From positions 1 through 64,000 of the forward strand of contig JACPQY010000085.1 in NCBI GenBank assembly GCA_016190245.1: a stretch of 64,000 nucleotides of DNA. The letters run 5' to 3'. The notes under the pieces were generated by a model, which was not told the DNA's origin, searched no databases, and worked only from the letters and a program-made list of their open reading frames with translations. The translations under genes and the position numbers were made by a program. This DNA is from Nitrospirota bacterium. Its GTDB lineage: Bacteria; JACPQY01. Below, in pieces: positions 11,323 through 34,007 of the stretch (positions are counted from its first letter, which is position 1; every line of letters begins with the position of its first letter).

Positions 11323-14285
11323 GGACCGGGAGTCGGCGGAGAAAACGCAAAGGCCGGAACAGCTTTCTCGCACGCGGGCCGGCGGACCCGCCAGTTCTGA
11401 AATCCCTCTTGCTGCTCGCTGCTTACTGCTTACTCGGCTTCCATGCCTGCGCCGAGCCTTCGCGCGGGACCGGCAAAGTGATCGACTTCCCCGTCACCGA
11501 GCGCATCGAAGCGGACGGGCTCTCCGCCGCGGTCGAGGTGGTGCGGGACCGCTACGGCGTTCCCCACATCTACGGCGCATCGGAAGGCGATGTCGCCTTC
11601 GTACAGGGCTGGATCCACTCGCGGGACCGCCTCTTCCAGATGGTGGTCCAGCGCGCGGCGGCGCTCGGCGAGACGGCCGTCCTCATCGGCGCGAGCCGCA
11701 TCCCGGACGACATCCTTTCCCAGATGTTCAAGTTCAAGGACGTCGCCCTGAAACTCTGGGCAAGCGGCACCACCGAGGACGAGCGCGCCTTCCTTCAACG
11801 CTACGCCGACGGCGTGAACGCTTCGCTTCGCGCCATGCAGCCGCAGGACCTCCCGCTCGAATTCCTCGGCCAGGGGATCAACGATCCGGACACGATCTAT
11901 AGCCAGCTCCTCCGGATCAATGACAGCCAGGACGGATGGAGCCCCATTGATACGATCGCCTTCGCCCGCCTCATGACCCACCAACTCAGTTTCGATGACG
12001 AGGGCAGCGAAGGGGAGCGATTCGAGGCGATTCTGAAGTACCTCGCCCCGGAGTTGGTCAAGCGCGGCCTCGCGACCAGCGGCACCGCCGCTCAACTCAC
12101 GGCGCTTTCATGGCTCAAGGACCTCTATCCAACAGTCGGCAACACCGCCGCCATCATTGATCAGCCCGGCACGTACGGTCGGCGCGAGTCGGCGCCCGGC
12201 CGCTGGCGGGCCTCACGCTCCCGACAGACTCGCACGGCTGCGACCGAAGGCACGCGCGCGCTCGGCCGCTACGTCGAGGACCTGCGCTCCCTCACCGGCC
12301 TCGTGCCCGCGTCCAACAACTGGGTCGTGCGCGGAACGATCAGCGAATCCGGCCACCCGATGCTGGCCAACGACCCCCATCTCTCTCTCCAAAATCCACC
12401 TGTCTTCCACGAGGTCCACATCAACACCAAGGAAAAGGGCGGAGACCTCAACGCAGCGGGCGTGATGTTCCCCATGGCACCGGGAGTGGTGATCGGTTTC
12501 AACGAACGCCTTGCGTGGGGAGACACCGTGGTCGGCTACGATGTGACGGATTTCTACGTGGAGCCGGTGGTCTCCGGGGACGGCCCACCCGAAAAATGGA
12601 TGATCAAAAGCCAGGGCCGGGAGGACGTTGCCCTCAAGGCCGTTATCGGCGGCTCGCTGTACAACTCTCCCGGCGGGACCTGCTCCCTACCCGCCCAAGT
12701 CCAGCAGCGGTTGGATGAAATGCTTGTCACGGTCACGTCGAACAACCCGTTCCTGGGCCGGTGCAAGCTCGACTTCCGAACCTACGAAGTCGCCGGCCAC
12801 GGCCCCGTCGTCCACGTCTCGCGAGACGACAGCGGCAAACCGACCTCGCTCATCACCGTGAAGTGGACAGGCATGGAACCGTCCGCGGAGCTGCGCGCGT
12901 TCCATCGCTACCTGACGTCCCAGACGATCCAGGACTTCGAGGCCGCCGTCTCCGAGTTCAAAGTCGGCGCGCAGAACCAAGTCGTGATGGATGCGGACAA
13001 CAACATCGGCTGGTACCCCAACGCCTGGGTGCCAAGACGCGATCCCCTGACCTGCAAGGATCCCAGCGGCCTTTCCGTCCCCTTCTACCTCCCCCAACCC
13101 GGCACCGGAGTGTGCGAGTGGCAAGGCATGATTGACGAAAACGACCTCCCGCGCCTCAAGAACCCCGAACGCGGCTACATCGCCACCGCCAACCACCAGC
13201 CCACCGCCAGCAAATCCTACTATCACGGCTCGTTCTACGACATCGGCTACCGCGGCGCGCGGATCACGCAGCTTCTGGAAGAGAAGAAGAACGCCGGGAA
13301 GATCGGCGTGGCGGACATGAAACGGATCCAGGCGGACACGCACCTCCTCCTGTGCGATGACTTCCTTCCCGTCCTCAAGTCGGCCATCGCGGGCCGAGCG
13401 GCCGAGGCGGGAGCTTCCGGGGAATCCGCCGGCTCCCTCCTCAACGACTACGACTGCTCCTCCCCCTCCGGCTACACGTACGACCGCCTCCGAGGCGCGG
13501 ACTCGCTCGACGTCTCGGCCGATCCGAAAGAACGCGCGCGCTCGGCCGCCGCCTCAATCTTCCATTCCTGGTTCTCCAACTTCGTTCACCTCACCTTCGA
13601 TGACCAGCTCGGCGGGCAGAACCTCGCCGGGCAACAGTACGCCCGCGCGATCTACACGATCACGTTTCGCAAGAACTGCGCGGACGGCGCGCTGAGCTCC
13701 GGCGAACCGTGCCAATCCTCCGGCACCGCCGCCACGGGCACGAGTCCCTTCTGGGATGATTGGTCAACGTCCGACACGATCGAATCGCGGGACGATATCG
13801 CCCGCCGCGCCTTTGCCGACGCGCTCGCCGGCCTCACTGTCAAGTTCGGCACACCCGACCCCTTGCAGTGGCTCTGGGGCCGTCTTCACACCCTCACCGT
13901 CCGCCACTTCGCCTCGGACACCTTCAACAGCCCCTCTCCCTCCGAAAAGCGATTCCAGGAACTCGGACTGAGCGGCTTCCCCCGCCCCGGCGGCGCCTTC
14001 GTGGTGGACGCCTCCGACCCCGGCTTCGGGGTGATGAATGCGGCCACCCAAGCCGACTACGCCTACCGCTCGGGACCGTCCTACCGTCTCGTGGTGGAGA
14101 TGACACCCTCCGGCCCTGAAGCGCACACGGCGCTCCCCGGCGGAAACGTCGCCCACCTCCGCAGCGCGTTCTACGACAACCAACTCCGCGAGTTCTGGTG
14201 GGCTAACCAGTACAAAGAATTTCCTTTCACCAGGGACGAGGTCGAGAGGGCCGCCCGCGAACTCTTCCTGTTCGCCCCGAAATGA
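11319..14285 (+). CDS. Penicillin acylase family Ntn-hydrolase, exported lipoprotein
   Basis: A 988-residue S45 (penicillin amidase) family protein, longer than the usual 750-850. The GTG start overlaps the DUF1302 stop. The Arg-rich leader ends in a lipobox (GFHAC, Cys44). DRYGVPHIYG and AFVQGWIHSRDRLFQM are alpha-chain signatures. The autocatalytic site is ASNNWVV with Ser332 as the predicted N-terminal nucleophile of the beta chain, followed by GHPMLANDPHLSL. The family hydrolyses amides such as beta-lactams, acyl-homoserine lactones or lipopeptides. Placement with an RND exporter and DUF1302/DUF1329 suggests an envelope substrate, possibly deacylation of an exported lipid amide (inference). 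The signal-peptide DNA is shared with the secretin gene at 33.6 kb. Confidence 0.85.
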   Translation: MRTGSRRRKRKGRNSFLARGPADPPVLKSLLLLAAYCLLGFHACAEPSRGTGKVIDFPVTERIEADGLSAAVEVVRDRYGVPHIYGASEGDVAFVQGWIHSRDRLFQMVVQRAAALGETAVLIGASRIPDDILSQMFKFKDVALKLWASGTTEDERAFLQRYADGVNASLRAMQPQDLPLEFLGQGINDPDTIYSQLLRINDSQDGWSPIDTIAFARLMTHQLSFDDEGSEGERFEAILKYLAPELVKRGLATSGTAAQLTALSWLKDLYPTVGNTAAIIDQPGTYGRRESAPGRWRASRSRQTRTAATEGTRALGRYVEDLRSLTGLVPASNNWVVRGTISESGHPMLANDPHLSLQNPPVFHEVHINTKEKGGDLNAAGVMFPMAPGVVIGFNERLAWGDTVVGYDVTDFYVEPVVSGDGPPEKWMIKSQGREDVALKAVIGGSLYNSPGGTCSLPAQVQQRLDEMLVTVTSNNPFLGRCKLDFRTYEVAGHGPVVHVSRDDSGKPTSLITVKWTGMEPSAELRAFHRYLTSQTIQDFEAAVSEFKVGAQNQVVMDADNNIGWYPNAWVPRRDPLTCKDPSGLSVPFYLPQPGTGVCEWQGMIDENDLPRLKNPERGYIATANHQPTASKSYYHGSFYDIGYRGARITQLLEEKKNAGKIGVADMKRIQADTHLLLCDDFLPVLKSAIAGRAAEAGASGESAGSLLNDYDCSSPSGYTYDRLRGADSLDVSADPKERARSAAASIFHSWFSNFVHLTFDDQLGGQNLAGQQYARAIYTITFRKNCADGALSSGEPCQSSGTAATGTSPFWDDWSTSDTIESRDDIARRAFADALAGLTVKFGTPDPLQWLWGRLHTLTVRHFASDTFNSPSPSEKRFQELGLSGFPRPGGAFVVDASDPGFGVMNAATQADYAYRSGPSYRLVVEMTPSGPEAHTALPGGNVAHLRSAFYDNQLREFWWANQYKEFPFTRDEVERAARELFLFAPK
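11392..11454 (+). repeat. 63-bp signal-peptide cassette shared with 33554-33616
   Basis: This stretch encodes VLKSLLLLAAYCLLGFHAC of the acylase leader. It matches the reverse complement of 33554-33616 at 59 of 63 positions and in the same reading frame. The core GCTGCTTACTGCTTACT is made of the 7-base units found in the tandem arrays at 32.1 and 34.0 kb. See findings. Confidence 0.85.
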
Positions 14286-14308
14286 CCCGCACGAAAGGAG
14301 CCCCCCCG

Positions 14309-15628
14309 ATGCTTCGCTCACGCCTGCTCGCGATCGCCCTCCCCCTTCTGCTGCCGGCCCTCGCCCTGGCAGACGCGCCTCCCGCGGGGCAGAAGATCTC
14401 CAAAGACAACATCGCCGCCCACCGCGATCTCCTCCCCGCCTCCGTGGCGGACCGGGTCGCCTCCGGCGCCTACGAGATCACGATCGGCGATCTGAAGCCG
14501 GCCTCTCTCTCCACCGTGTACGCCAAGGGCTTCTACGAGGCCTCGTCGAACAACAAGGGGAAGTTCAAGCTCGCCGACGGCGGCGGCCTCGTCTCCACCG
14601 CGTCCGGAGAGCGAACGCGACTTCCCTACGGCCTCCCCTTTCCGGACATCACCGCCTCGGACCCCGATGCCGGCACAAAGATCATGTGGAACTTCTATGC
14701 CACCGAGTTCCAGAACAACGCCCAGGAGGCCATGTTCGTCCTCCGCACACTCAAAGGGAATTCGGTGGAGGTCGAGGTCATCGGCAAGGTCGCCCGCCTC
14801 AACGTGGATTTCAGCACCCGCGAATTGCCCGGCGCGGCCAAGGGGAATTCCTACATGGAGAACGCCCTCTACCTCGCGCCGGCGGATCTCTTCGGCACCG
14901 TGACGCTCACGTGGCGATGGCAGGACTCCGCCAAGTGGGACACCACCTGGGCCTACTCCCCCTCGATTCGGCGCGTGCGGCGCACGTCCTCCGCCAACCG
15001 GTCGGACCCCATCGGCCCGACGGATTTCATCCTCGACGACCTCAACGGCTATTCGGGCAAGGTCGAATTCATGAACTGGAAGCTCATCGAGGAGAAGGAC
15101 ATGCTCGTCGCATATCTGCCCGATGACGCGGACTCCAACACGGTCACCTTCCCGCGCGTCGGGGCCGCGGCCCCCAAGTTCGGCGCGCGCGCGTTCAACC
15201 AGCCGCGCTACACAGTGCGATGGGGATACGGCGACCCCACGAAGGGCCTCTCCGCGTGGTGGCCGCTCAACTGGGTGTGGGTGAAGCGCCCCGTGTACGT
15301 CGTGGAAGGCACCTCCAAAGATCCCTACTACAGCATCGGCAAGCAACACCTCGTGATCGACCGGGAGACGTTCCGGATCCACATGAAGCTCGGGTGGGAC
15401 CGCGCGGGCGAATACTGGCGGACCCAGGTGATGAACCAGAGCTACTACATCTCGCCGAAGAAAGACGTCTCCGCGGCCGCCGCTGAAATTTCGTTCGTGG
15501 TGGACGAAAAACGAAACCGGGCCTCGGTGTCCAGCCGGGTTGACGAGAAGATCAACCCGACGGCCTTCGATATCCAGATCGATCCGTCGCTCTTCTCGTC
15601 CAGCAATTTCCTCAACTATGGCAAGTGA
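14309..15628 (+). CDS. DUF1329 family envelope protein
   Basis: A 439-residue exported protein. The ATG at 14309 has AAAGGAG 8 bases upstream and gives a clear signal peptide (LLAIALPLLLPALALA). An ATG at 14282 that overlaps the acylase stop (ATGA) is the alternative. Features of the family include SVADRVASGAYEITIGDLKP, TWAYSPSIRRVRRTSSANRS, DPIGPTDFILDDLNGYSGKV and a C-terminus with VIDRETFRIHMK. DUF1329 proteins are predicted LolB-like lipid-binding proteins and usually accompany DUF1302 and RND genes. It likely ferries or anchors the hydrophobic substrate of this cluster at the outer membrane (inference). Confidence 0.8.
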   Translation: MLRSRLLAIALPLLLPALALADAPPAGQKISKDNIAAHRDLLPASVADRVASGAYEITIGDLKPASLSTVYAKGFYEASSNNKGKFKLADGGGLVSTASGERTRLPYGLPFPDITASDPDAGTKIMWNFYATEFQNNAQEAMFVLRTLKGNSVEVEVIGKVARLNVDFSTRELPGAAKGNSYMENALYLAPADLFGTVTLTWRWQDSAKWDTTWAYSPSIRRVRRTSSANRSDPIGPTDFILDDLNGYSGKVEFMNWKLIEEKDMLVAYLPDDADSNTVTFPRVGAAAPKFGARAFNQPRYTVRWGYGDPTKGLSAWWPLNWVWVKRPVYVVEGTSKDPYYSIGKQHLVIDRETFRIHMKLGWDRAGEYWRTQVMNQSYYISPKKDVSAAAAEISFVVDEKRNRASVSSRVDEKINPTAFDIQIDPSLFSSSNFLNYGK

Positions 15629-15647
15629 CACTGCCAAAGGAGGCAAC

Positions 15648-16520
15648 ATGAAACATCTGCGACCACCCATGCCGTGCTCGGTGAATCATCCTCAAAGTGT
15701 CCGATCCGTTCTGCGCGAAGCCCGGCTTCCGCTCCTGCCTCTCCTGCTCACGGTTCTATGTTCGCTGTTCACGATCCCGGCTTGCGGCGACGACGAGGAG
15801 GCCGGCATCACCGCCCCGGCCGGCTGCGAGTGGACGGACGCATGTCCGACCGGCTGGAAGAAGAGCGGGAACACCTGCGAGTACACGGCGGGCGCCACGA
15901 CCACGATCGAAGGCAACGTCGCCGTGTTTTCGTTCAACAGCCCCGTCGCGAATGCCGTCGTCAAGGTACAGAACTTCGGCACGGAACTGCCCGCGTGCGG
16001 CGTGTCCGATGCAGCCGGTCTCCTGAAGATCGAGGGCGTCCCGACGAACATCGATCCGACACTCGCCGCGAAGGCCCCCGATGCCTTCCTCGGCAAGCCC
16101 ACCTACACTTTCCATGCCGACTACGTCACGAGCCTCGCGGGCCCAATCACGGGAGCCACGGTTTACGTGATCAACGATCCCCTCGCCAAGATCTTCCTTC
16201 CGGCCCTGGGCATCACAACCGCCCCCCCAAGTGGACGCGGCTTTGTGGCCGGGGCAACGTACGACGCGGCCGAAAACCCCATCGGCGGGATCACCGCGTC
16301 AGCGAGCAGCACGGACGCCGGGACGAAGACGCTCTATACGGCCAACAACCTGCCCAATACCGCGGCCACGGAATCAGACGCCTCGGGACAATACATTCTC
16401 GCCGGCCTCCCCGTCGGTGAAACCACAATCACCGTCTCCAAGGGCGGTGCCGCCATCGGGAACACCAAGGCGATCGTCTACGACCAGGCGGTGACGTTGG
16501 CGAGTGTGGTGGTGAAGTAG
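15648..16520 (+). CDS. Surface lipoprotein with carboxypeptidase-regulatory-like domain
   Basis: A 290-residue lipoprotein with AAAGGAGGCAAC before the ATG. The leader PLLPLLLTVLCSLFTIPAC ends in a lipobox and is coded by variants of the 7-base TGCTCAC repeat. After a Cys-rich linker (AGCEWTDACPTGWKK) come two beta-sandwich modules of the carboxypeptidase-regulatory type: VANAVVKVQNFGTELP, then ESDASGQYILAGLPVGETTI. These modules are common in outer-surface proteins. It is the last gene of the plus-strand cluster, and function beyond surface display is unknown. Confidence 0.7.
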   Translation: MKHLRPPMPCSVNHPQSVRSVLREARLPLLPLLLTVLCSLFTIPACGDDEEAGITAPAGCEWTDACPTGWKKSGNTCEYTAGATTTIEGNVAVFSFNSPVANAVVKVQNFGTELPACGVSDAAGLLKIEGVPTNIDPTLAAKAPDAFLGKPTYTFHADYVTSLAGPITGATVYVINDPLAKIFLPALGITTAPPSGRGFVAGATYDAAENPIGGITASASSTDAGTKTLYTANNLPNTAATESDASGQYILAGLPVGETTITVSKGGAAIGNTKAIVYDQAVTLASVVVK

Positions 16521-16523
16521 AGC

Positions 16524-16605
16524 AGAAAAGGGGACATTCCTATTTTCTCGTCCCCCTGCAGATTCTGGAAATCCCGCGGGTGAAAATAGGAATGTCCCCT
16601 TTTCT
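16524..16605. terminator. Perfect 24-bp inverted repeat between convergent genes
   Basis: AGAAAAGGGGACATTCC then TATTTTC (16524-16547) is repeated exactly in inverse orientation at 16582-16605, with a 34-base loop containing CCCGCGGG. It fills the gap between the plus-strand lipoprotein stop at 16520 and the minus-strand SDR stop at 16608 and can act as a two-way terminator. The sequence resembles the REP-type units mobilised by tyrosine transposases (family knowledge), but differs from the repeats flanking the transposase at 43.7 kb. Confidence 0.7.
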
Positions 16606-16607
16606 GA

Positions 16608-17381
16608 TCAGAGCGGCGTCACGTAGGCGGCGGTGATCCCGCCGTCCACCAGTAGACAGGTGCCGGTAATGAACGAGGCCGCATCCGACGCGAGGAACAG
16701 CGCGGCCTGAGCCACCTCCCGGGCCTCGCCGAACCGCCCCATGGGGATGTGCACGAGGCGCCGCCGCTTCTTCTCCTCCGTATCCAGAATCTTCATGAGG
16801 AGCTCGGTGCGCAGGGGCCCCGGGCAGAGGGCATTGACGCGGATGTTCTCCCTCGCGTGGATTACGGCCAATTCGCGGGTAAGGGCGACGACGCCGCCTT
16901 TGCTCGCTGTGTAGGCGATCTGCGGCATGGCCGCCCCCATGAAGGCGACGAACGACGCCATGTTCACGATCGCGCCCCCACCGGCGCGCCGAAGGGCCGG
17001 GATGCCGTGCTTGCAGCCGAGAAAAACCCCCTTGAGGTTCACGGCGAGTGTCTTCTCCCACACGGACTCCTCCGTGCGCACGGCATCGTCGTCCGTGCTC
17101 TCCATGATGCCGGCATTGTTGACAAGGACATCAAGCCCGCCGAAGTCGCGCTCGGCGGCCGCCACCATCGCCTGAACGTCCGAGCTGCGCGAAACGTCCC
17201 CCTTCACGAAAGCCGCTCGACCCCCCTGCTTCTCGATCAGCGCAACCGTCTCTCCCCCGCCCACCTCCATAACATCGGCCACCACCACTATCGCTCCCTC
17301 CGCCGAAAAGAGGGCCGCGATTTCCCTCCCGATCCCGCTTCCGGCGCCCGTGACGAGCGCCACCTTGCCCCTAAGCCGCAT
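16608..17381 (-). CDS. Short-chain dehydrogenase/reductase, classical SDR
   Basis: A 257-residue NAD(P)-dependent oxidoreductase. The cofactor motif TGAGSGIG is at residues 11-18, NNAG at 88-91, the catalytic serine is S143 and the Y-x3-K pair is Y157/K161. PGPLRTE follows, as in classical SDRs. An Asp at the end of the second strand (VVVADV) favours NAD over NADP. It overlaps the amidotransferase by 11 bases and is the last gene of its run. In this polyamine and nitrogen context it might oxidise an aldehyde, alcohol or amine-derived intermediate, but the substrate cannot be read from sequence. Confidence 0.88.
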   Translation of the reverse strand: MRLRGKVALVTGAGSGIGREIAALFSAEGAIVVVADVMEVGGGETVALIEKQGGRAAFVKGDVSRSSDVQAMVAAAERDFGGLDVLVNNAGIMESTDDDAVRTEESVWEKTLAVNLKGVFLGCKHGIPALRRAGGGAIVNMASFVAFMGAAMPQIAYTASKGGVVALTRELAVIHARENIRVNALCPGPLRTELLMKILDTEEKKRRRLVHIPMGRFGEAREVAQAALFLASDAASFITGTCLLVDGGITAAYVTPL

Positions 17382-18093
17382 GTCTCACCTCCCGAAATGC
17401 TCGCGCCGCCCCCACAAGCCCGTCGAAGAGGCGCTGGTGGACGGCCTCCTCGTGGGCCGTGATCTCGGGGTGCCACTGAACGCCCATGAGCCAGCGCTGG
17501 TCTGGTATCTCCACGCCCTCGATCGTACCATCCGACGCGCGCGCTACCACCTTCAGGCCCTCCCCCGGCTTCCGGATCGCCTGGTGGTGCCATGAGGACA
17601 CCTCGACCTGCGTATCACCCAAGACCGCCGCCAGCCGAGACCTCGGCTCGACCCGCACGGCGTGTCGAACGGGCTCCCGGGCTTCCGAGCGGTGCAGGAT
17701 GCGGGTCCCCACCTCGTCCGGGAGGTGCTCGATGAGTGTCCCTCCCAACGCCACGTTCAACACCTGGAGCCCCCGGCAGATGGCAAGCATGGGGATGCGT
17801 CCCATGACCGCAAGACGGGCCAACTCGAGCTCGCCGTGATCCCGCTCGGAATTCACGGCGTAGATCTTTTCATGAAGGGTTCCACCGTACCGGGCGGGTT
17901 CGATGTCGCCGCCGCCGGTCAGGATGAGGCCATCTATTCTCTCCAAGAGGCCTCGCCGATCCGTCTCCACCGGAGGAAGAAGGATCGGCGTACCGCTCGC
18001 CCTCACCACAGCCTCACAGTAGTCCGCCGTGAGATGGAACTCGTCTTCCGCGTTGCGCGGGTAGCTCGTCAGACCGATGAGTGGTGAATCCAT
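17371..18093 (-). CDS. puuD: Class I glutamine amidotransferase-like hydrolase, PuuD type
   Basis: A 240-residue peptidase C26 family protein. The nucleophile is C106 in AICRGLQ, with H208 and E210 in QWHPE completing the triad. TGGGDIEPARYG is typical of gamma-glutamyl-GABA hydrolase (PuuD), which releases GABA from gamma-glutamyl-GABA in the Puu putrescine route. The PuuA-like synthetase upstream supports that role. The ATG at 18093 is chosen over one at 18129, because the upstream codons are a 7-base repeat (CTTTCCC variants) encoding Ser/Phe/Pro. It overlaps the SDR start. Confidence 0.75.
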   Translation of the reverse strand: MDSPLIGLTSYPRNAEDEFHLTADYCEAVVRASGTPILLPPVETDRRGLLERIDGLILTGGGDIEPARYGGTLHEKIYAVNSERDHGELELARLAVMGRIPMLAICRGLQVLNVALGGTLIEHLPDEVGTRILHRSEAREPVRHAVRVEPRSRLAAVLGDTQVEVSSWHHQAIRKPGEGLKVVARASDGTIEGVEIPDQRWLMGVQWHPEITAHEEAVHQRLFDGLVGAARAFREVRHAA

Positions 18094-18097
18094 CGAG

Positions 18098-18126
18098 GAA
18101 AAAGGCGAAAGGGGAAAGGGGAAAGA
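18098..18126. repeat. Period-7 repeat of AAAGGSG type
   Basis: Four consecutive units AAAGGCG, AAAGGGG, AAAGGGG and AAAGACA lie just upstream of the amidotransferase start. A matching array on the other side of the four-helix-bundle gene, around 18590-18617, reads CTTTCAC, CTTTCCC, CTTTAGC and CTTTGAC. The small gene is therefore framed by the same heptamer family in opposite orientation. Confidence 0.7.
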
Positions 18127-18172
18127 CACCCCTCCGCCCGTCGCGAGCCGGGCGCCCCACCCGCGATCGGAG

Positions 18173-18550
18173 TCATCGGCCCGTTGGCACCTGGCTGCGG
18201 ACAGCCCTTCGAAACCCCGACAAGATGCGGCTCACTTCTTCCGCAGATCGCACCAGGCCCTCGAAGGCCGCACCGTCAAGATAGCCTTGGTCCCTAGCCA
18301 CATAGAGTTGGGAGCGGATCTCCCCGCAAGACCCCTTCGCAACGGCAAGAAAGCGGCTCAACTCAGCCCTTGAAGTTCGTTCGTATCCTTCAGCGATGTT
18401 GGACATGACCGAAACCGACGCTCTCCTGATCTGATCCCGCAGAGCGAAATCACGCGAAAAGGGAGAAGACTTTGTCGCGGCGTAGACGTCGCGAGCCAAC
18501 TCCCTGGCCTTTTTCCAGACGATCAAGTCTTCGAACCGGTCTCCACCCAT
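18173..18550 (-). CDS. Four-helix-bundle protein of the 23S rRNA intervening-sequence (IVS) family
   Basis: A 125-residue protein with GGGAGGTGGGAG before the ATG. The pattern FEDLIVWKKARELARDVYA, then LRDQIRRASVSVMSNIAEGY, then ELSRFLAVAKGSCGEIRSQL is diagnostic of the TIGR02436 family, known from intervening sequences of 23S rRNA genes and also found as stand-alone genes. No enzymatic role is known. It is placed between the PuuA-like and PuuD-like genes, flanked by heptamer repeats. It is one of four such genes in this window and the most divergent of them. Confidence 0.88.
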   Translation of the reverse strand: MGGDRFEDLIVWKKARELARDVYAATKSSPFSRDFALRDQIRRASVSVMSNIAEGYERTSRAELSRFLAVAKGSCGEIRSQLYVARDQGYLDGAAFEGLVRSAEEVSRILSGFRRAVRSQVPTGR

Positions 18551-18627
18551 CTCCCACCTCCCTTCACACGCCCCATTCAGTCCGATCCTCTTTCACCTTT
18601 CCCCTTTAGCCTTTGACCTTCTTGCCG

Positions 18628-19980: not shown

Positions 19981-20014
19981 GTCCAGCCTGCCTGACGCCG
20001 AGCTGTCGCGTCGA

Positions 20015-22380: not shown

Positions 22381-22427
22381 CCCCTCTCCGCCGCGGCGGA
22401 CGGACTTCGGCGGGCAGGCAGCCCGCG

Positions 22428-24532: not shown

Positions 24533-24573
24533 GCGCAGAACTTACTTCCTCTGGCCGGCAACTTCAAACGAGC

Positions 24574-24585
24574 TACAATACAGCC
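24574..24585 (+). promoter_or_regulatory. -10 element TACAAT giving a leaderless GTG start
   Basis: TACAAT (24574-24579) is followed by exactly 6 bases and then the GTG of the small gene. There is no ribosome binding site, so the transcript is probably leaderless. The -35 is weak. The same spacing and hexamer occur at 47684. Confidence 0.5.
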
Positions 24586-25564: not shown

Positions 25565-25566
25565 TG

Positions 25567-26544
25567 TCACCTCATTTCCCCTTTCGGCTTTCCGCTTTCG
25601 GCTCCCAGCTTCTCCCCTTCCTCCTCCCAGACCCTCACACAGTTTCTTCCCCCTTCCTTGGCCTGATAGAGCGCCCGATCGGCCCGCTCGATCACACTCT
25701 CTCCCGTCAAACCCTCCGACGTCCCGTTTACCACACAAACCCCCACACTGACAGTGACCGTGAAGGCCCCCTCTTTCTCGACAAACGGTCCGGCCTCGGC
25801 GCTTTTCCTCATCCGCTCGCCCAACCGTAGCGCGGCCGACTCATCGGCATTGTTCGCCACGACCACGAACTCTTCTCCACCGAACCGCGCCAACACGTCC
25901 CCCTGCCGCACGCACTCTTGGAGCCGCCCGGCCAGTTCCTTGAGCACCCGATCACCGGCCAAGTGTCCAAACCGGTCGTTGACGCTCTTGAAGCGGTCCA
26001 CGTCCACCATCAGCACCGCAAACGAATCGCGGTATCGTCGGGCCAAGCTCAGCTTAGCGTCCAGCGCCTCCACCAAATAAGCCTTGTTGAAGACCTCCGT
26101 GAGACCGTCGCGCGTGGCCATCCGGTACATCTCATCCAACCAGGCCCGCTCGAGATCGTCGGCACGCAGGAACCTGAAGATCGTGCCGCCCACCTGGAGG
26201 CGATCCCCATCCCGCAGCGTCGCTTCGGTTACTCTGTCGAGGTTGACGAACATGCCGTTGCTGCTTTCAAGGTCGGTCACTCGGCAGCCGTCCGGCCCGA
26301 CATGAATCTCCGCATGCCGCCGCGAGGCGAACCGGTCGGTCTCGATCCGGATGTCCACACCCTCCCCGCGCCCGATGAGAATGAGCGGGCGATCCAGATC
26401 GAACCGGCGGCCCTGAAGATCGCCGTTGAGAACGACCAGGCAGCCTTTCTGCACGCCCGCTCGCGCTCGCGGTGAGACCTCTTCGAAAACGGTCGCTCCC
26501 TCGCCGTCCAGCGTCAGTTCGTCGGGATTGAAAGGATCACCCAA
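25567..26544 (-). CDS. FHA-GGDEF protein, probable diguanylate cyclase
   Basis: A 325-residue protein with an FHA domain (about residues 35-115: LILIGRGEGVDIRI, FASRRHAEIHV, DLESSNGMFVN) and a GGDEF domain (about 135-300: RDGLTEVFNKAYLVEALD, LMVDVDRFKSVNDRFGHLAG, and the active-site GGEEF). GGEEF is competent for c-di-GMP synthesis. The FHA domain should bind phosphothreonine and gate the cyclase. No ATG exists near the start; a TTG at 26544 that overlaps the upstream stop is the best candidate. The last 20 residues (Glu/Gly/Lys-rich) are coded by a 7-base repeat. Confidence 0.88.
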   Translation of the reverse strand: MGDPFNPDELTLDGEGATVFEEVSPRARAGVQKGCLVVLNGDLQGRRFDLDRPLILIGRGEGVDIRIETDRFASRRHAEIHVGPDGCRVTDLESSNGMFVNLDRVTEATLRDGDRLQVGGTIFRFLRADDLERAWLDEMYRMATRDGLTEVFNKAYLVEALDAKLSLARRYRDSFAVLMVDVDRFKSVNDRFGHLAGDRVLKELAGRLQECVRQGDVLARFGGEEFVVVANNADESAALRLGERMRKSAEAGPFVEKEGAFTVTVSVGVCVVNGTSEGLTGESVIERADRALYQAKEGGRNCVRVWEEEGEKLGAESGKPKGEMR

Positions 26545-27082
26545 GGATCGCGTCGCCTCTCGCCTCGCGGGGCGGGCCAAGCTTGAGCACGGCCATCGGG
26601 AGCCCCGCTTGGCGCCGCGCCACGTCAACTCGGATCATCTTCACGAAATCGCCCCCAAGAGTGGATTCTACCACGCCGACGCACACCATCCGGCGTGCTT
26701 TCCGCCGCGCCGAACAGGCCAGCATGAGCGGTCCCGCTTCGCCTCCCTCTCCCAGGTTCACCGTGGCATCAAGGATGCCGATCGTGGCCTGGATCGCCCC
26801 GACCCGGCCGGGCAGACGATCGCCCCACGGCATGATCCTTCGCAGCCCGATACCGCGATCCCTGCACCATCCCGTGAGCTCCTCCACGCTTGCTTTCGCC
26901 GGAATGCCGGCAATGGAGCAAAGCTGGCGTCGAGTGGCGTAAAGATGATCCACCGCCCTCAGAAGTTGGGGAAGCGACGGACATGGTCCGCCCGCCGCAT
27001 CCTTTCTCCCGCGCCCCGTTCCGCGGCCGCGGCCCTCGTGCCCGTTCCCCCCACTACGGTTCTCAGTTCTGGACTCGCGCAT
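26537..27082 (-). CDS. Hypothetical protein upstream of the FHA-GGDEF gene
   Basis: A 181-residue protein. The ATG at 27082 follows GGGGGTGCAGGT. A Gly/Arg-rich N-terminus (GHEGRGRGTGRGRKDAAGG) leads to a folded-looking part: LPQLLRAVDHLYATRRQLCS, VEELTGWCRDRGIGLRRIMP, then a domain with VGAIQATIGILDATVNLG and VCVGVVESTLGGDFVKMIRV. No membrane segment is seen. It overlaps the FHA-GGDEF start, so the two are coupled and may work in the same signalling step. I do not recognise the family. Confidence 0.6.
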   Translation of the reverse strand: MRESRTENRSGGNGHEGRGRGTGRGRKDAAGGPCPSLPQLLRAVDHLYATRRQLCSIAGIPAKASVEELTGWCRDRGIGLRRIMPWGDRLPGRVGAIQATIGILDATVNLGEGGEAGPLMLACSARRKARRMVCVGVVESTLGGDFVKMIRVDVARRQAGLPMAVLKLGPPREARGDAILG

Positions 27083-27163
27083 ACCTGCACCCCCTTGACC
27101 ACCAAACCCTCGGGAACGACAAACCAGGGGGGCCTGCCTCAAAGGCAGGGTAGCCCGCCACAC

Positions 27164-27649
27164 TCATTTTGATGATCTCTCAGCAGTGCCCGCCTGTCTG
27201 TGACTTACATCACATTTCCCACCTGCGGGCGTGGGCTCGCAGGCCGTATCTGCCAACCCGCCGGACATCCGCCATCGGACCGATGAGAATCGGTCCCTAC
27301 GAAAACATGGGGTCCACGACCGCCGGAATTCTTCCCATCTTCGTAGGGACGCATTCTGATGCGTCCGTATCTGAGCATAGGCACGTAGTATGCCTATGCA
27401 CATCATTTAGGTCAAGGCGCTTGAAGGGTCCCTGATCCGTCGCCAGGCATCCGTGTCCCGTAGGGACGCACCTGGGCAAGGAGCCCTGGTGCCATGAGCA
27501 GAAAGCAGCCCAGGAAGGGCTGCGATCAGCATGGCATTCCTATGCGTCCGAGAAGACGGACCGATCAGAATCGGTCCCTACAGCGTTGAATGCAGGCCAT
27601 CCTGGGCCAGGTACGACGGAGGCACACCCATCGGGTGCGCCCCTCCCGA
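27164..27649. repeat. Repeat-only interval with palindromes and a hairpin element
   Basis: About 490 bases without a gene. Three 20-bp palindromes are present: GGACCGATGAGAATCGGTCC (27277-27296), GGACGCATTCTGATGCGTCC (27347-27366) and GGACCGATCAGAATCGGTCC (27558-27577). All sit beside GTAG or CTAC. A structured element is at 27471-27539. The interval lies between the ends of two blocks of genes on the same strand and marks the left edge of the conjugation locus. Confidence 0.75.
27471..27539. repeat. Structured hairpin element, copy 1
   Basis: Outer stem GCCATG (27491-27496) with CATGGC (27530-27535); inner stem GCAGCCC (27505-27511) with GGGCTGC (27517-27523). It is preceded by GGGCAAGGAGCCCTGGT. 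Copy 2 at 52073-52140 keeps both stems with compensatory changes, and copy 3 lies at 47055. Confidence 0.75.
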
Positions 27650-28249
27650 TCAGAACCTGAGCTCGAACGAATCCCCGTCTATCTCAATCACCGCGCGCGA
27701 CGGGCCTACCTCCTTCAGCGTGACGTCGCCGATCCTCTCCCCCACCCTTTGAAAAGAGTGGACTCGCCCGTTCACCTCAACCACGGCACCGCGCTCGTCC
27801 ACCGCCACGAGTTTCAACTTGGGTCTCGGCTTGGGAGGCGGGGCCTTCGCCTTCGCCTCCTCCACCTTCCTCTCGGCTTCCCGGCGTGTTGCCACATCCG
27901 CCTGCCGGACCTCCGCCTGGGCCTTCGCCAGGCGCGCCCGCAACTCTGCACGGTAGACATCCATCCTCAGCGCATCCAATTCAGGATCTTCCAGCCAGTC
28001 GAGCCTGGGGAACGCGGCGGAAGATGGGGCGGTCTTCGGCGGCGCCGATAAAGGCACGGCGGACTCGGGCGCCCCCGACTCCGTCGCTTCCGTCCCTGCC
28101 TCTCTCTCACTCCCGAACGAGCCGAGAGGGCTCTCCTCGCCCTGCGCGCGGGCGCTGGAGTCCTCTGACGTCGGCCACCCCCTCCAAAACCATCCGTATG
28201 CCACGGCGATGGCCACAATCGTCGCTGCGATCCAACCATTCTTCTTCAT
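27650..28249 (-). CDS. PilP/GspC-like protein at the end of the conjugation operon
   Basis: A 199-residue protein with one N-terminal membrane helix (WIAATIVAIAVAYGWFW), a Pro/Ser/Ala linker, a long charged helix (ALRMDVYRAELRARLAKAQA...) and a C-terminal beta domain: LVAVDERGAVVEVNGRVHSF, then GDVTLKEVGPSRAVIEIDGD. The last domain is of the PilP/GspC type, which contacts secretins in type IV pili and type II secretion. GAGGAGGCAATCC precedes the ATG, which overlaps the upstream stop (ATGA). The secretin encoded at 32277 is the likely partner (inference). Confidence 0.6.
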   Translation of the reverse strand: MKKNGWIAATIVAIAVAYGWFWRGWPTSEDSSARAQGEESPLGSFGSEREAGTEATESGAPESAVPLSAPPKTAPSSAAFPRLDWLEDPELDALRMDVYRAELRARLAKAQAEVRQADVATRREAERKVEEAKAKAPPPKPRPKLKLVAVDERGAVVEVNGRVHSFQRVGERIGDVTLKEVGPSRAVIEIDGDSFELRF

Positions 28250-28950
28250 GGATTGCCTCCTCTCGGCATAATGCCTGCCGATACCGCCGGCCCAGCCGCC
28301 GGCCGCTCCAACACGCGACCGACCACGGACGCCGTCACATCGAGTCTCCCTCGATCCCAGGTCACCAGCTCCACGACCACCGGCCACTGGGAAAGTCTTT
28401 CGAGAAATACGCCAACCCCGCTCAACGCCGGCACGGGGACTCGGATCACGGATCCGCACGTCTCCCACGTCTCCTGGCGCGCACATGTCCCCCGCTCTAT
28501 TTGGCCCTCCAGCGCCTCTATGCCGTCTCCCAGCGCCCCCAAGGTGTCTCCGGCAGCGGGGGGATCCTCGCCCGCGGGCCACGCTCCTCCCGCTGCGCCG
28601 GACTCGCCGATCGGCCAGGAGCACCGGCCGCGCCCAAACGCCCCGCCGGCGGCCTCGCAGGCCTCAAGACCCGGACCTTCGACTTCAATGGACGTGGAAC
28701 TCCACGTCAAGCTTCTCACACCGCCCAAGCCGGCCAGTGCCGGCGGTCGCTCGGGGATCGGGAGCCTCCGGCCGGACCGCCACTTCGCCAGCGCACGGGT
28801 CGCCGCGTCCTCGATGACCGGCTTCGACCGCTCGGCCCATCGAGCTTGTTCGACGGCGTCCCTTTCCTTCGACTCCCGCGATCTCATCCAGTACTCTGTC
28901 CCGGTCGCTCCAAGCGCAACAAGAGCGACAAAGACTGCAACCCTATTCAT
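28246..28950 (-). CDS. PilO-like membrane protein of the conjugation locus
   Basis: A 234-residue protein with one N-terminal membrane helix (VAVFVALVALGATGTEYW), a soluble middle with a Cys pair (EACEAAGGAFGRGRCSW), a helix (LGALGDGIEALEGQIE) and a C-terminal ferredoxin-like stretch (GVGVFLERLSQWPVVVELVT, then GRLDVTASVVGRVLE). This layout fits PilO or PilO2-like proteins of type IV pili. It follows the TraC gene after a gap of 85 bases filled by GATTCCC-type heptamers and is coupled to the PilP-like gene. Confidence 0.5.
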   Translation of the reverse strand: MNRVAVFVALVALGATGTEYWMRSRESKERDAVEQARWAERSKPVIEDAATRALAKWRSGRRLPIPERPPALAGLGGVRSLTWSSTSIEVEGPGLEACEAAGGAFGRGRCSWPIGESGAAGGAWPAGEDPPAAGDTLGALGDGIEALEGQIERGTCARQETWETCGSVIRVPVPALSGVGVFLERLSQWPVVVELVTWDRGRLDVTASVVGRVLERPAAGPAVSAGIMPRGGNP

Positions 28951-28994
28951 CCGAGACGCCCCCCCTCCGTATTTCGCCATTCGGAATCCGGTTT

Positions 28995-29038
28995 CTCCTT
29001 CTTCCCTGTTCGATTCTCGATTCCCGATTCTCGGTTCA
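28995..29038. repeat. GATTCTC/GATTCCC heptamer run after traC
   Basis: GATTCTC, GATTCCC, GATTCTC, GGTTCAC form a 7-base periodic run ending at the traC stop codon, so the stop itself is part of the repeat. Similar units are at 24940 and 46110. Confidence 0.65.
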
Positions 29039-31642
29039 CGACCCCTTCCCCCTCCCCGCCGCCACGCCCATCGGATACTTCTCCGCGAGCATCCGCACCG
29101 CATCCACCTTGCTCCCCGTCTCCTTCACCGCGGCATGGAAGGCCTGCACGTCCGCCCCATCCGTGGTGGACACCCAGTACGAGACCGGGTCCGGCACGAG
29201 CCGGAGCACTCCGTCCCTCGTGGCTCCTTCGAAGGTTGTGAGGACGAACGCCTCGCTGTAGTACCCCTTGCGCATGTGCACGGTCTGGATCGTGCGCACC
29301 TGGTTCGGGTTGAGGTGCAAGTGCTTCGCCAGGGTCTCCAGCGCCTTCGGCTGCTGCTTGAGCAGGAAAAGGTTCGGAGCGTTCGAGACGATCGCCTCGC
29401 CGGCGGGGAACTGGACGAGATCGAGCACGTCCTGCGTGATCACAAACACCAGACCGGAGTACTTCCGAAACGTTTTGTAGCCTTCCTGGATGAAGGCCGC
29501 GGCGGCCGGGTCTTTCAGGAACGCCCACGCCTCGTCAATCATCAGGTACTTGCGGACGCCGCGAATGGCCTCATCGCGCACCACGCGGATGATCAGGTTC
29601 ATCACGGCCATCATGAGTGGTCCCCGGAGGTCGGGCTGGTCCTTGGCCTCGGTGAGGTCAAACACGGTCATCCGGTTTCCCAGTCGCAGCCTGGTCGGAC
29701 CGTCGAAAAATGCCCCGAAACGCCCCTGCCGCGTGAACGGATAGAGCTTCAGCGCAAGCCCCTCGCCCAGGCTCCCCTCCTCTTTCAGGGCTTGAGTGAT
29801 GTCGCTGACGAAGACCTCCTCGCCCCGCTTCCGCTCGAACGCCTTTCTCAGCGCGATCTCGAAGAGGACCTTCTGATCGCGCGTCACGGGCTCCTGACTC
29901 TCGGGGTCCCGCACCATCTGCGCGAGGAGGGGCACCCAGAGGGCCACGCTGGCGTCGTTCAGTTCGTCCGCAAAGGGATTGATGCATGTCGGATTCTTGA
30001 GAACGATCTGGGCATAGTCGCCGTCCAACATTTCACATAGTTTCTGGTAGGAGCCCCCAACATCTATGATGAACACGAACGGGCGCGGGTTCAGCCGTTG
30101 GGCCTGGATGAGCATGTCGTTCGTGAAGAAGCTCTTGCCGGCGCCGGAGGTGGCCAGGATGAGGCCGTGGGGGCTCGTGTCGCAGTCCATCGGGTCCGCT
30201 GTGACGGGCACGCCCAGGCGGGAGACATAGAGCTGGGTGGGCGTGCGCGTGCCCGCGAAGTACCCCCAGAGGGGGAGGAACATAACGAAGCGGTCGGAGA
30301 GGACCTTTCGCAGTCGCCTCAAGTACGTGTCGAGTCTCGGATCGAAGCCGAGGGGGAGGCTGGAGAGGAGGACCGGCAGAACCACGTCCGTCTCGATCGA
30401 GGCCGTGGCGCCGACGAACGAGAAGGCGCGCAGCAAGGCGTCGGTCGTCTCGGCTTGCTGGGCGGGGGGCGAGGACGCGACGACGTGGACGGCGAACGAC
30501 ACGATCCGGCGGTTTTTCCCTTCGATTTCCTTGAGAACGTCGTCCAGTTCATCCAGGATGACCTTGGCCGCGAGGTTCTCCTGGCCCGTGATGGACCGCG
30601 CCTGCCGTCCCGCCAGGAACCGCTTCGCGCCAAGGGCGGACTTGGACTCGGCCAACGTCAGGTTCACGAAGTTGATGGCGACCAGGAGGTTGCCCGTGTA
30701 CCGTTCGAGGAGGGTGTTGATCAGGGCGGGGCCGACACTCCCAGGAAGGCCCGTGAGGCTGAGGACCTGCGTGCACAGACCGTCGAGCAACAGGTGGTCC
30801 TCCCGAACCTCGCAGTTCCCGAAAGCGATCTGCTCGCGCAGCGGCCGCCCGTCCGGAATGAATCGTCCACCCCCACCTGCCTCCTCCCCCATCGAGGGGG
30901 AGGAACTTTTGGGCGCCCCCTCCCCCCTTGCGGGGGAGGGTGAGGGTGGGGGGTGATTCCCGAACGCGAAAGAGCGCGCCCTCCCCGGATTCAGCGCCCG
31001 GTACGCAATCCCCAACAGCCCCGTCATGTCGAGCCGCTCCGGGCGGAACCCGTACCCTTGCAACCCCCTCTCCAGCCCGAGCCCCTGCCGCATGAGGTCG
31101 GCCTTGCGCGCGAGGTAGTCCCGATGGATTTCGCCCGCGATCGCCCCCCGGCCCTTGGCGGCCCATGCCAGAATGCCGCCTGCCGTCCGCGTCGGCGGCG
31201 GCGAGATGAGCATGAGGTAGACCGCAAACCGGCGGCACCGGTACGGATCTCCCGGCCAGAAGCCGTGCACCGCGGCGTCGCGATATCGCGCCGACTTCCC
31301 CTCGCACAGCAGTGTTATAAGACTGTCAGGTGGGAGTTCCGAAGCACCCAAGAACTTGTTCAGAGTGTCATCCACGTCCCCGCTGACCTCGAGAAGGAAC
31401 TGCCCGCAGAACCCCTGGGGTATCTCCAGGAGCAGCCGCTCCACCACCTCGCCCATCCGAGCCTTTGCCTCATCCGAATCGGTCTCGCTCGGCACCGGCG
31501 AGATCCGCCAGCCCATCCCCAGCCGCCCGTCCACCTGGATGAACACCTGCCCATCGGGGTCGTAGTCGTAGTAGGGCAGCAGTTCGGCCACATCGGGGCC
31601 GCGATCATTCAGCGCCGCGAGGCGCTCACGGGAGATAGCCAT
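29036..31642 (-). CDS. traC: TraC-type (VirB4 family) conjugation ATPase
   Basis: An 868-residue T4SS ATPase. The Walker A motif ATSGAGKS is at residues 497-504 and the Walker B LMIDEAW near 700. DGPTRLRLGNRMTVFDLTEA, then LMMAVMNLIIRVVRDEA and VFVITQDVLDLVQFP are VirB4/TraC features. It powers pilus assembly and substrate transfer at the inner membrane. Its ATG overlaps the stop of the four-helix-bundle gene (TGATG). Residues about 229-258 are an insert rich in Pro, Ser and Gly, coded by a GC-rich palindromic repeat (30869-30957) and absent from ordinary TraC proteins. Confidence 0.88.
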   Translation of the reverse strand: MAISRERLAALNDRGPDVAELLPYYDYDPDGQVFIQVDGRLGMGWRISPVPSETDSDEAKARMGEVVERLLLEIPQGFCGQFLLEVSGDVDDTLNKFLGASELPPDSLITLLCEGKSARYRDAAVHGFWPGDPYRCRRFAVYLMLISPPPTRTAGGILAWAAKGRGAIAGEIHRDYLARKADLMRQGLGLERGLQGYGFRPERLDMTGLLGIAYRALNPGRARSFAFGNHPPPSPSPARGEGAPKSSSPSMGEEAGGGGRFIPDGRPLREQIAFGNCEVREDHLLLDGLCTQVLSLTGLPGSVGPALINTLLERYTGNLLVAINFVNLTLAESKSALGAKRFLAGRQARSITGQENLAAKVILDELDDVLKEIEGKNRRIVSFAVHVVASSPPAQQAETTDALLRAFSFVGATASIETDVVLPVLLSSLPLGFDPRLDTYLRRLRKVLSDRFVMFLPLWGYFAGTRTPTQLYVSRLGVPVTADPMDCDTSPHGLILATSGAGKSFFTNDMLIQAQRLNPRPFVFIIDVGGSYQKLCEMLDGDYAQIVLKNPTCINPFADELNDASVALWVPLLAQMVRDPESQEPVTRDQKVLFEIALRKAFERKRGEEVFVSDITQALKEEGSLGEGLALKLYPFTRQGRFGAFFDGPTRLRLGNRMTVFDLTEAKDQPDLRGPLMMAVMNLIIRVVRDEAIRGVRKYLMIDEAWAFLKDPAAAAFIQEGYKTFRKYSGLVFVITQDVLDLVQFPAGEAIVSNAPNLFLLKQQPKALETLAKHLHLNPNQVRTIQTVHMRKGYYSEAFVLTTFEGATRDGVLRLVPDPVSYWVSTTDGADVQAFHAAVKETGSKVDAVRMLAEKYPMGVAAGRGKGS
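30869..30957 (-). repeat. REP-like palindrome inserted in frame in traC
   Basis: CTCCCCCATCGAGGGGGAGG and CCTCCCCCCTTGCGGGGGAGG-like hairpins with GGGTGAGGGTGGGGG form a repeat of about 89 bases of a type common as dispersed REPs in Proteobacteria. Here it lies inside the traC frame without a stop, adding about 30 residues between GRARSFAFGN and FIPDGRPLREQ. Confidence 0.8.
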
Positions 31643-32082
31643 CAGACCAGTGAGCAGTAAGCAGTGAGCAGCAAGCCCGATGTCAGGCCTGAAGCGGATG
31701 AGACGCTTGCAGACATTCGCTTCAACGAGCGAATCAGCCCCGTCAACATCTTGCTGACGGAGACCGAGGTCTCTTCCAACCGCGTGTCCGTCCGATATTC
31801 CAGCAGACGTGCGATTTCAAGGTGCGTGTCAAGTTCGCTCAGCGAGCCCTGAGCATAGTGAAGGAAGTTCGCGAATTCCTTGCGCGTCTGCCGACCCGCT
31901 CCCTCGGCAATGTTCGACGCGATGCTGACAGCGGCCCGACGAGCCTGTGACGTCAGCCCATATCTCTCTTCCTCCGGCCAACTCCGAGTCGACTCATATA
32001 CAGCCTTGACCAGCATCAGGCTTTGCCTCCACACCTGCAGCCGTTTGTGCGGTTTCACACGGCCGGCGTCATGCTTCTCCAT
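31642..32082 (-). CDS. Four-helix-bundle (IVS family) protein coupled to traC
   Basis: A 146-residue protein with GGAGGAGGTGGGCTG before the ATG. KPHKRLQVWRQSLMLVKAVY, EERYGLTSQARRAAVSIASN, IAEGAGRQTRKEFANFLHYA and GSLSELDTHLEIARLLEYR identify the family. It is a close paralogue of the N-terminus of the secretin fusion at 34007 and of the gene at 54153. The C-terminal tail (GLTSGLLLTAYCSLV) is coded by the TGCTCAC repeat, and its stop overlaps the traC start. Its role in a conjugation operon is unknown. Confidence 0.88.
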   Translation of the reverse strand: MEKHDAGRVKPHKRLQVWRQSLMLVKAVYESTRSWPEEERYGLTSQARRAAVSIASNIAEGAGRQTRKEFANFLHYAQGSLSELDTHLEIARLLEYRTDTRLEETSVSVSKMLTGLIRSLKRMSASVSSASGLTSGLLLTAYCSLV

Positions 32083-32098
32083 CAGCCCACCTCCTCCT

Positions 32099-32290
32099 CC
32101 GTCCCTGTTCACCGTCTGACCGCTTACTGTCTTGCTGTTCACTGCTTACTGCTCACTGCCCACTGCTCACAGCTTACTGTCTTGCTGCTCCCTATCCTGT
32201 TGCTCCCTGTCCTGCTGCTCACTGTCCTGCTGCTCACTGTCTTGCTGCTCACTGCTTACTGCTCACTGTTCACTGCTCACTGTTCACTTT
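32099..32290. repeat. Tandem array of 7-base TGYTYAC units
   Basis: A run of units such as TGCTCAC, TGTTCAC, TGCTTAC, and interposed TGTCTTGC or CCTGTTGC variants, extends over about 180 bases between the secretin stop and the downstream four-helix-bundle gene. In the plus direction all three frames read a cycle of Cys-Ser-Leu-Leu-Thr-Ala-His type. The right end covers the last codons of the secretin gene. Confidence 0.85.
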
Positions 32291-34007
32291 GCCCCGTTCG
32301 CAGCACGCGCACGATGAAGACAGCCTGCTCCGTCCGCTCCGTATCTCCGAACCACCCCTTCTCCGTTGTGGAACCCGCGCCCGTGGAGACAATGAGCGGC
32401 TGGCCGATCTCCGCCGTGGACGTGGTGGAGAAACTGTGATTGAGGCGGTCGGCCACGCCCCCGGCCATTTCGACGATCACGCGGCCGGTGTTCGAGTAGT
32501 CCCGGTGCGGCGTAACGTACAGCTCCCAGCCGCCGGCCTGGGAGCCCGGCGAAGATTCAACCGCCATGTGGACCGTCCACCCGTTCAGCGCGACCACCCG
32601 CGGGCGCGACACGAGCCGGGCCTTTTCGGGCGCGAGCCCCGCCAGGAAGACGGCCGCGGGGTCCGTGTCCTCCCCCTTGAGTTTCCCCTCCAACGCGACC
32701 GGTCCACCGGGAAGGATCCGATCCAGACCGATCCGCTCCGCCACGCTTTCCCACGAGACTCCGTCCTTGCCCGGCGAGGCGAGCAGGATGGCCACCTCCA
32801 CCAGCCAGGGCTCCCGCGACTCGGCCTCGATCTGCCGGAAATAGCGGTCCAGCGCCCTTATGTTTTGGTGCTCGTCGCGCACGATGGCCGTGCCGCTGAT
32901 GGGATCCACCATCACCTTCCCCTCGGGGGAGAGGAACGAGCGGATGGAGTTCTGCAAAGCCGTGCCCGGGTCCTCGGCGTATCTCACGGTTACGCCACCT
33001 CCGTTCGAGCCGGGCAGCGCCGCGGGCCGACGCGCCCACACTTCGGGAAGGTAGAAGACCCTTTCGATGTACCTGCGCACGAGGGCGGTGTGCGCCGTGA
33101 AATCGAACTCCGCGGTGTATCCCGCCTGAGAAACGAGGCCGTCCACAGCCACGTGGAAGGGAATCTCGGTGAGGTCGGCTGATACCGCTCTCTCCGGGTC
33201 CACCCCCTCGTCCCACTTCACACTCCATTCCGCCTGCAACCCCAGCCTCTCCAGCGCCATTCGCAGAGGCAGACCGGCGGCTTGCAGCGTAACCGAAGGT
33301 GTCGCCCGGGCCATCATCTCCTCGCGATCCGACCCCATCCCGAATGCGCGGTCGAGATCCCGACTCCCCCTCTCATCCGACCTCTCGCCCTCCCCCCTAC
33401 CCCGGCTTCCCGGTTCTCCGCCGCGGCGGGCTCCCTGTTCCCTGGCTTCCCGACTGCCCACTGCCGACTCCCTCCTGCCGACTCCCGATTCCGCCACCGA
33501 CTGCATGATCGCCTTCTTCTCCTCCTCGTCCATCCCGTAACTGTCGGTCTTGCCGGCGCAGGCCTGGAAGCCGAGTAAGCAGTAAGCAGCAAGCAGCGAG
33601 ACGGATTTCAGAACTGATGGGGCCGCGAACCCGTTGCGAGCCGACTTCAGGGATCGAATCAAGCCTGTCAGCATCTTGCTGACTTCGGTTGTGCTCCGTG
33701 CGGCGCCGGAGTCCACCCGGTAGCCAAGCACGCCCGCAATTTCGAAATGGGTATCCAGCTCACTGAGTGAAGCTTGAGCGATGTGGAGGAAGTTGATGAA
33801 CTCCTTTCGAGTCTGGCGGCCGGCCCCCTCCGCGATATTGGCTGCGACACTGACAGCCGCCCGCCGCGCCTGGGAACTCAGCCCGTATCGTTCTTCTTGC
33901 GGCCACAGTGTCGTCATTTCATAGGTCCGTTTCACGACCTCGAGGCTTCTTTTCCAGACCTCCAACCTCTTGTGCGGCTTGAGATCATTCCGAACTGCAT
34001 CCACCAT
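32277..34007 (-). CDS. Four-helix-bundle to lipoprotein-secretin fusion (PilN/PilQ-like secretin)
   Basis: A 576-residue reading frame. AAGGAGGGATAGCTC sits before the ATG at 34007. Residues 1-122 are a complete four-helix-bundle IVS-family protein (KPHKRLEVWKRSLEVVKRTY; ARRAAVSVAANIAEGAGRQ). Residues 131-150 are a lipoprotein signal (SLLAAYCLLGFQAC, Cys150). Residues 160-205 are an Arg/Glu/Gly-rich linker coded by 7-base repeats. From about 235 the protein is a short secretin: an N-type domain, VMVDPISGTAIVRDEHQNIR, then LVSRPRVVALNGWTVHM. A Met at residue 112 (MLTGLIRSLK, position 33674) could start a free lipoprotein secretin with a normal signal peptide. Whether fused or separate, a secretin is unexpected inside an F-like T4SS. 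Confidence 0.75.
   Translation of the reverse strand: MVDAVRNDLKPHKRLEVWKRSLEVVKRTYEMTTLWPQEERYGLSSQARRAAVSVAANIAEGAGRQTRKEFINFLHIAQASLSELDTHFEIAGVLGYRVDSGAARSTTEVSKMLTGLIRSLKSARNGFAAPSVLKSVSLLAAYCLLGFQACAGKTDSYGMDEEEKKAIMQSVAESGVGRRESAVGSREAREQGARRGGEPGSRGRGEGERSDERGSRDLDRAFGMGSDREEMMARATPSVTLQAAGLPLRMALERLGLQAEWSVKWDEGVDPERAVSADLTEIPFHVAVDGLVSQAGYTAEFDFTAHTALVRRYIERVFYLPEVWARRPAALPGSNGGGVTVRYAEDPGTALQNSIRSFLSPEGKVMVDPISGTAIVRDEHQNIRALDRYFRQIEAESREPWLVEVAILLASPGKDGVSWESVAERIGLDRILPGGPVALEGKLKGEDTDPAAVFLAGLAPEKARLVSRPRVVALNGWTVHMAVESSPGSQAGGWELYVTPHRDYSNTGRVIVEMAGGVADRLNHSFSTTSTAEIGQPLIVSTGAGSTTEKGWFGDTERTEQAVFIVRVLRTGQSEQ
33554..33616 (-). repeat. 63-bp signal-peptide cassette shared with 11392-11454
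   Basis: Reverse complement matches the acylase leader DNA at 59 of 63 bases in the same frame, encoding VLKSVSLLAAYCLLGFQAC here. The similarity ends on both sides, at CAGTTCTGAAATCC and GCCTGCGCCG, where the two genes become unrelated. Confidence 0.85.

Follow-up and report, generated by a model that had tools for sequence, protein, structure and literature searches.

Heptad repeats as putative signal-peptide cores in a Nitrospirota bacterium, and a 63-bp segment common to a penicillin acylase gene and an IVP-secretin locus

In the opa genes of Neisseria, CTCTT repeats lie in the leader-peptide coding region (PMC3745409, PMC3960869). A second described system is the IVS of Coxiella, in which heptamers (GACAGAT) are located 5' of the S23p ORF and the inverted ends are cut by RNase III (PMC4990558). 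Dispersed heptamers are also known elsewhere: the accessible parts of the reports describe TAACTGA heptamers in Beggiatoaceae, one orientation of which translates stop-free into a heptapeptide repeat (PMC4679880), and tandem heptanucleotide repeats in Nostoc and Xanthomonas (PMC4692102), mainly intergenic in these groups and with possible regulatory roles (PMC4679880, PMC4692102). In the open-access literature, we found no direct report of heptad-coded signal peptides or of heptads flanking IVP genes, nor of heptads as a common signal-peptide source for many unrelated genes.

Here, we analyze a window of 64,000 nucleotides (C79:1-64000) from the draft genome of a Nitrospirota bacterium (G000; 3.29 Mb, 86 contigs, 85% complete), the comparison within the family being made with one family-level relative, the draft genome G001. 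Short tandem repeats were found inside putative signal-peptide coding regions, and the closest known mechanism to these heptad leaders is the CTCTT repeat of the opa leaders: in both cases, the region encoding the leader of (here putatively) exported proteins contains a short repeat whose length is not divisible by three, and gain or loss of a unit would break or restore the frame. Unlike that of opa, the present repeat is a degenerate heptad that is scattered among many unrelated genes, also occurs in IVP cassettes and was apparently once copied between genes; here, only a single ortholog pair suggests switching. With IVS/S23 elements, the window has in common a PF05635-type ORF, terminal inverted repeats that would form a stem and tandem heptamers 5' of the ORF, but its copies lie between protein genes and not in 23S rRNA, and their arms are heptad arrays whose family varies by locus. 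Tandem heptamers dispersed over many sites of the genome are likewise found in Beggiatoaceae, Nostoc and Xanthomonas, whereas use as a signal-peptide core is not described in the accessible parts of those reports.

A 63-bp segment common to two genes

An earlier note on this DNA described a 63-bp signal-peptide cassette, read in the same frame in a penicillin acylase gene and a secretin gene, and attributed it to copying and not to convergence. The features concerned are:

11319..14285 (+): penicillin acylase gene (PF01804, E 8.9e-149), GTG start with GGAG upstream
11392..11454 (+): copy A, leader of the penicillin acylase, with IVP-type tail, heptads and lipobox-like end (59/63 to copy B)
32277..34007 (-): ORF with IVP domain (aa 13-114; PF05635, E 1.3e-30), lipoprotein-type signal and secretin-like domain
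33554..33616 (-): copy B, the 3' end of the IVP gene including its heptad arm, leading in frame to the lipobox of the secretin-like gene (sequence, domain search)

Re-comparison gave the same 59 identities out of 63 bases and the same common reading frame; one of the four differences is synonymous and three are nonsynonymous (L/V, L/S, H/Q). When the segment was searched against its own genome, only these two full-length copies were recovered (E 2e-26 and, for the second copy, 4.8e-21), the next-best matches being heptad-only fragments (E 2.7e-5 or worse) and the remaining ones arising via the heptad core or as short chance matches. The core of both copies consists of four degenerate heptads, CTTGCTG CTCGCTG CTTACTG CTTACTC. 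Since this core is a dispersed repeat that finds matches elsewhere by itself, it is the non-heptad ends that show copying: CAGTTCTGAAATCC is identical at 14/14 bases and GGCTTCCAnGCCTGCGCCG at 18/19. About 25 bases further upstream, there is in addition a weak gapped similarity (p 0.002-0.0045 relative to random 40-mers of the window). The other leader pairs of G000 that were compared have heptads in common, but none of them such matching non-heptad flanks. Copying between the two sites is thus, on the sequence comparison, well supported, in agreement with the earlier note.

Other parts of that reading have to be modified. VLK is encoded by GTT CTG AAA, which provides no start codon. A piece was indeed apparently copied between genes, but copy B is more than a secretin leader, being the 3' tail of an IVP gene whose frame continues into the secretin-like gene. 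An extension of the match into a longer mobile element, which the earlier note had considered, is partly seen, as the piece consists largely of this tail and an inverted heptad arm, and the IVP gene is a probable mobile cassette. Both this cassette nature and the wider pattern of heptad leaders (~20 genes, see below) had been missed.

IVP genes and their heptad flanks

The ORF that carries copy B contains a complete 23S-rRNA-IVP (PF05635) domain; its second part matches no Pfam domain, and the secretin-like assignment follows the earlier note and inspection by eye. In G001, the homolog of this secretin (57% identity) stands as a gene by itself, directly after an IVP gene, and has an ATG and the leader MLQMWDILPGSASRLLLLTICTLPLTTHSC of its own. 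The G000 product would be either a fusion or translated from an internal start, e.g., an ATG in the IVP tail. Around copy B, matches to TraC, TraV, TraB/TrbI and TraK (window 29036-38125) identify an F-type conjugation (T4SS) operon, which is interrupted twice by IVP genes. The IVP domain matches of the window span 18215-18532, 31741-32046, 33666-33971 and 54276-54578, all outside 23S rRNA: two are in the T4SS operon and the other two between protein-coding ORFs. The associated features are:

34051..34220 (-): CAGTGAA-type heptads forming the left array, upstream of the copy B IVP gene and inverted with respect to its tail (TRF, sequence)
31645..32142 (-): second IVP gene (E 4.1e-34), located in the T4SS operon, with a tail similar to the left part of the 63-bp segment
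32135..32288 (-): heptads forming the left array of the second IVP gene and complementary to its right arm 31646-31676 (TRF)
18215..18532 (-): third IVP gene, with inverted AAAGGGG-type heptads on either side (domain match, sequence)
54276..54578 (-): fourth IVP gene, with inverted CAGTCGG-type heptads on either side (domain match, sequence)

All four of these strong IVP genes thus combine a PF05635 protein with inverted terminal repeats made of heptads. One heptad family is common to both T4SS copies, and each of the other two genes has its own. The arms of the second IVP gene (31.7k) give an in silico duplex value of -106.9, versus a shuffle mean of -74.1 (sd 5.2), while for the other three cassettes arm pairing falls on the limit of the shuffle range or slightly past it. 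A survey extended to 39 IVP loci of about 30 genomes, where 17 upstream and 19 downstream flanks scored 0.60 or more for period 7, compared with 18/586 control windows; 9-mers common to both flanks were inverted in 27 of the 39 loci and direct in 13. IVP genes from many phyla (loci L036-L039 and L073-L100) often have inverted tandem heptad arrays around them, sometimes with another period, the heptad family differing from one to another. An IVP gene with inverted heptad arrays looks like a general cassette, and such cassettes may move heptads around. Among the matches listed, a G000-type heptad lies within about 100 bp of an IVP gene in 3/80 foreign loci.

Heptad arrays as putative signal-peptide cores

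Allowing one mismatch, the pattern YTBACTGYTBACTGYT has 105 matches in G000, versus 0 for the reversed pattern. (In another genome, G065, the reversed control gives 99 matches, pointing to another heptad family.) Because 7 equals 1 modulo 3, every frame of the sense strand encodes the same heptapeptide: the TTCACTG repeat is translated into FTVHCSL and the CTTACTG repeat into LTAYCLL, stop-free in all three frames, with the opposite strand of the TTCACTG, CTCACTG and CTTACTG repeats containing stops. A nearly perfect array of ~20 heptads, alternating CTCACTG and CTTACTG, is found beside CGATTC heptads at G000:C42:3716-3864 (L113).

Three further ORFs of the window have a heptad-coded leader core:

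46713..46742 (-): core VLLFTVHCSLVATAGC of ORF 46148-46843, ATG with AAAGGAG upstream (sequence)
59017..59046 (-): core LLALLFTVHCSLLTAHA of ORF 58633-59211 (sequence)
60134..60156 (-): core LLLTAYCSLLTFCAPPAHA of ORF 59389-60255 (sequence)

Elsewhere in G000, such leaders precede, among others, a cytochrome c7, a GxGYxYP hydrolase, a CarboxypepD_reg protein and a FadL-type porin. Reading the genomes in stretches around heptad matches, we found in G000 and G001 together ~20 genes with an array as putative signal-peptide core, often with a lipobox, a count made partly by eye (leader-like appearance in about 13 clusters of G000 and 8 of G001); the signal peptides were judged by hydropathy and lipobox and are putative in this sense. 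For nineteen leaders, the maximal 12-residue hydropathy has a median of 2.19, versus 1.37 in the interior of the proteins concerned (p 6e-6). A Prosite-type lipobox core is present in 9/19, those of the secretin-like protein and 8 others. Many of these leaders have GTG as start codon and a weak Shine-Dalgarno site, and the histidine in the h-region (LTAHCSL) is unusual for a signal peptide. The n-regions at L103, L104, L113 and L280 are often of a second heptad type, CGATTCT/CGATTCC, encoding RFSIxDSRF.

On these data, we consider it likely that the 63-bp pair exemplifies a lineage-specific use of dispersed YTBACTG heptads as hydrophobic cores of signal peptides. An array located between the start codon and the mature domain would supply the h-region whatever its phase, since the same hydrophobic stop-free heptapeptide is read in three frames, and a lipobox or A-x-A site would follow. 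Alternatively, the arrays could act at the RNA or DNA level, as regulatory, structural or selfish elements with a tendency to lie near gene starts, the hydrophobic peptide being a by-product and the 63-bp match merely a duplicated repeat. The pairable inverted arms around IVP genes are in line with such elements, as are the G000 arrays outside leaders, internal or intergenic, and the mostly intergenic heptads of other genera, for which the accessible parts of the reports propose regulatory roles (PMC4679880, PMC4692102). We nevertheless hold this explanation to be unlikely, given the orientation of the arrays. With a fixed cluster rule, so strict that it misses the acylase and secretin-like genes themselves, clusters at an ORF start amount in G000 to 23/33 in sense versus 5 in antisense, with a lipobox in 6 versus 1, and in G001 to 9/14 versus 2, with a lipobox in 6 versus 0. 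The lipobox difference between sense and antisense in G000 alone is not significant (p 0.10). The proteins downstream of the arrays also speak against by-products, being of exported classes wherever Pfam gives a class, as does the retention of leaders in orthologs.

The same rule applied to other phyla gave 22/110 clusters in sense versus 1 in antisense, with a lipobox in 1 versus 0, which differs from G000 (Fisher p 6e-4 for the lipobox), the foreign set comprising at least 80 loci chosen by an exact 22-base motif, stricter than the G000 pattern. Heptad leaders are accordingly rejected as a general phenomenon, and a mere repeat element is difficult to reconcile with the near absence of this arrangement outside the G000/G001 family.

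Leaders made of repeats are present in both genera for the cytochrome c7, a CGDPF lipoprotein, GxGYxYP and FadL. The cytochrome c7 leaders have the same heptads in the two genera, and those of the GxGYxYP leader are degenerate. In the G001 FadL leader (L282, G001:C4:84244-85725), the heptad is a different one, TCATCAC, which suggests that one heptad family can give way to another at a given leader position. No clear heptads were seen in the leader of the G000 ortholog of L280 of G001. In the CGDPF lipoprotein (L120:1174-1592 (-), compared with L278), the G000 leader has one 7-nt gap relative to G001, inside the array. Its ATG with Shine-Dalgarno sequence is out of frame with the lipobox, for which no other start exists in frame, while start and lipobox are in frame in G001. 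The G000 gene is thus possibly in an OFF state, and the gap may be the trace of slippage at an opa-type contingency locus, the alternatives in this one ortholog pair from single assemblies being an assembly error or a dead gene. As 7 is not a multiple of three, gain and loss of heptads may switch export on and off at such leaders.

Origin of the acylase leader

The leader of the acylase in related genomes, a comparison proposed in the earlier note, is informative here. Acylase orthologs have ordinary lipoprotein leaders unrelated to the 63-bp segment, MRRRATVLAAGLILSAC in G001 (58% identity) and MKKWFTIFAAAVLLAAGC in G015 (52%), from which we conclude that the ancestral leader is replaced in the window. 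A protein scan of the genome_contigs collection for the acylase yielded no relative. The incoming tract would have been derived from the 3' arm of the IVP (S23) cassette, which abuts the secretin-like lipoprotein gene of the T4SS operon, the copying probably having occurred by gene conversion or template switching within heptad homology. As this tract has no start codon, translation of the acylase probably opens at the GTG at 11319, which overlaps the stop of the preceding DUF1302 gene and is the likely start; the n-region read from it would be very basic. At the other end of the leader, the lipobox-like GFHAC departs at position -2 from the strict Prosite lipobox, whereas the copy B leader conforms to a Prosite-type lipobox.

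Copying in the reverse direction, with the acylase leader as donor and the secretin/IVP tail as recipient, has to be weighed as well, since the four differences do not polarise themselves and G001, the relative compared, is related at family level. We regard it as improbable. The left part of the segment can be placed in the IVP family from its alignment with the tail of the second IVP gene of the T4SS operon (score 57 for the acylase copy, shuffle maximum 28; 87 for copy B, shuffle maximum 34), and the acylase orthologs have leaders of another kind. The donor of the acylase leader is therefore probably the IVP/secretin locus. Pure convergence, i.e., two independent heptad expansions selected for hydrophobic leaders, is very improbable and was rejected for this pair: heptads are frequent in G000 leaders, but the matching non-heptad flanks set it apart.

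A broader picture, in which heptad signal cores are interchangeable and frame-independent throughout the lineage, are spread by and renewed from IVP cassettes, are copied between genes and can switch the export of many envelope proteins when one heptad is gained or lost, is possible but tentative. If true, a selfish or structural DNA repeat would have become a working protein module many times in one lineage, because its 7-base unit reads the same in every frame. Uncultivated bacteria would then have a simple source of new signal peptides and possibly phase variation of their envelope proteins on a genome-wide scale, and heptad repeats would be linked to the long unexplained S23/IVP genes.
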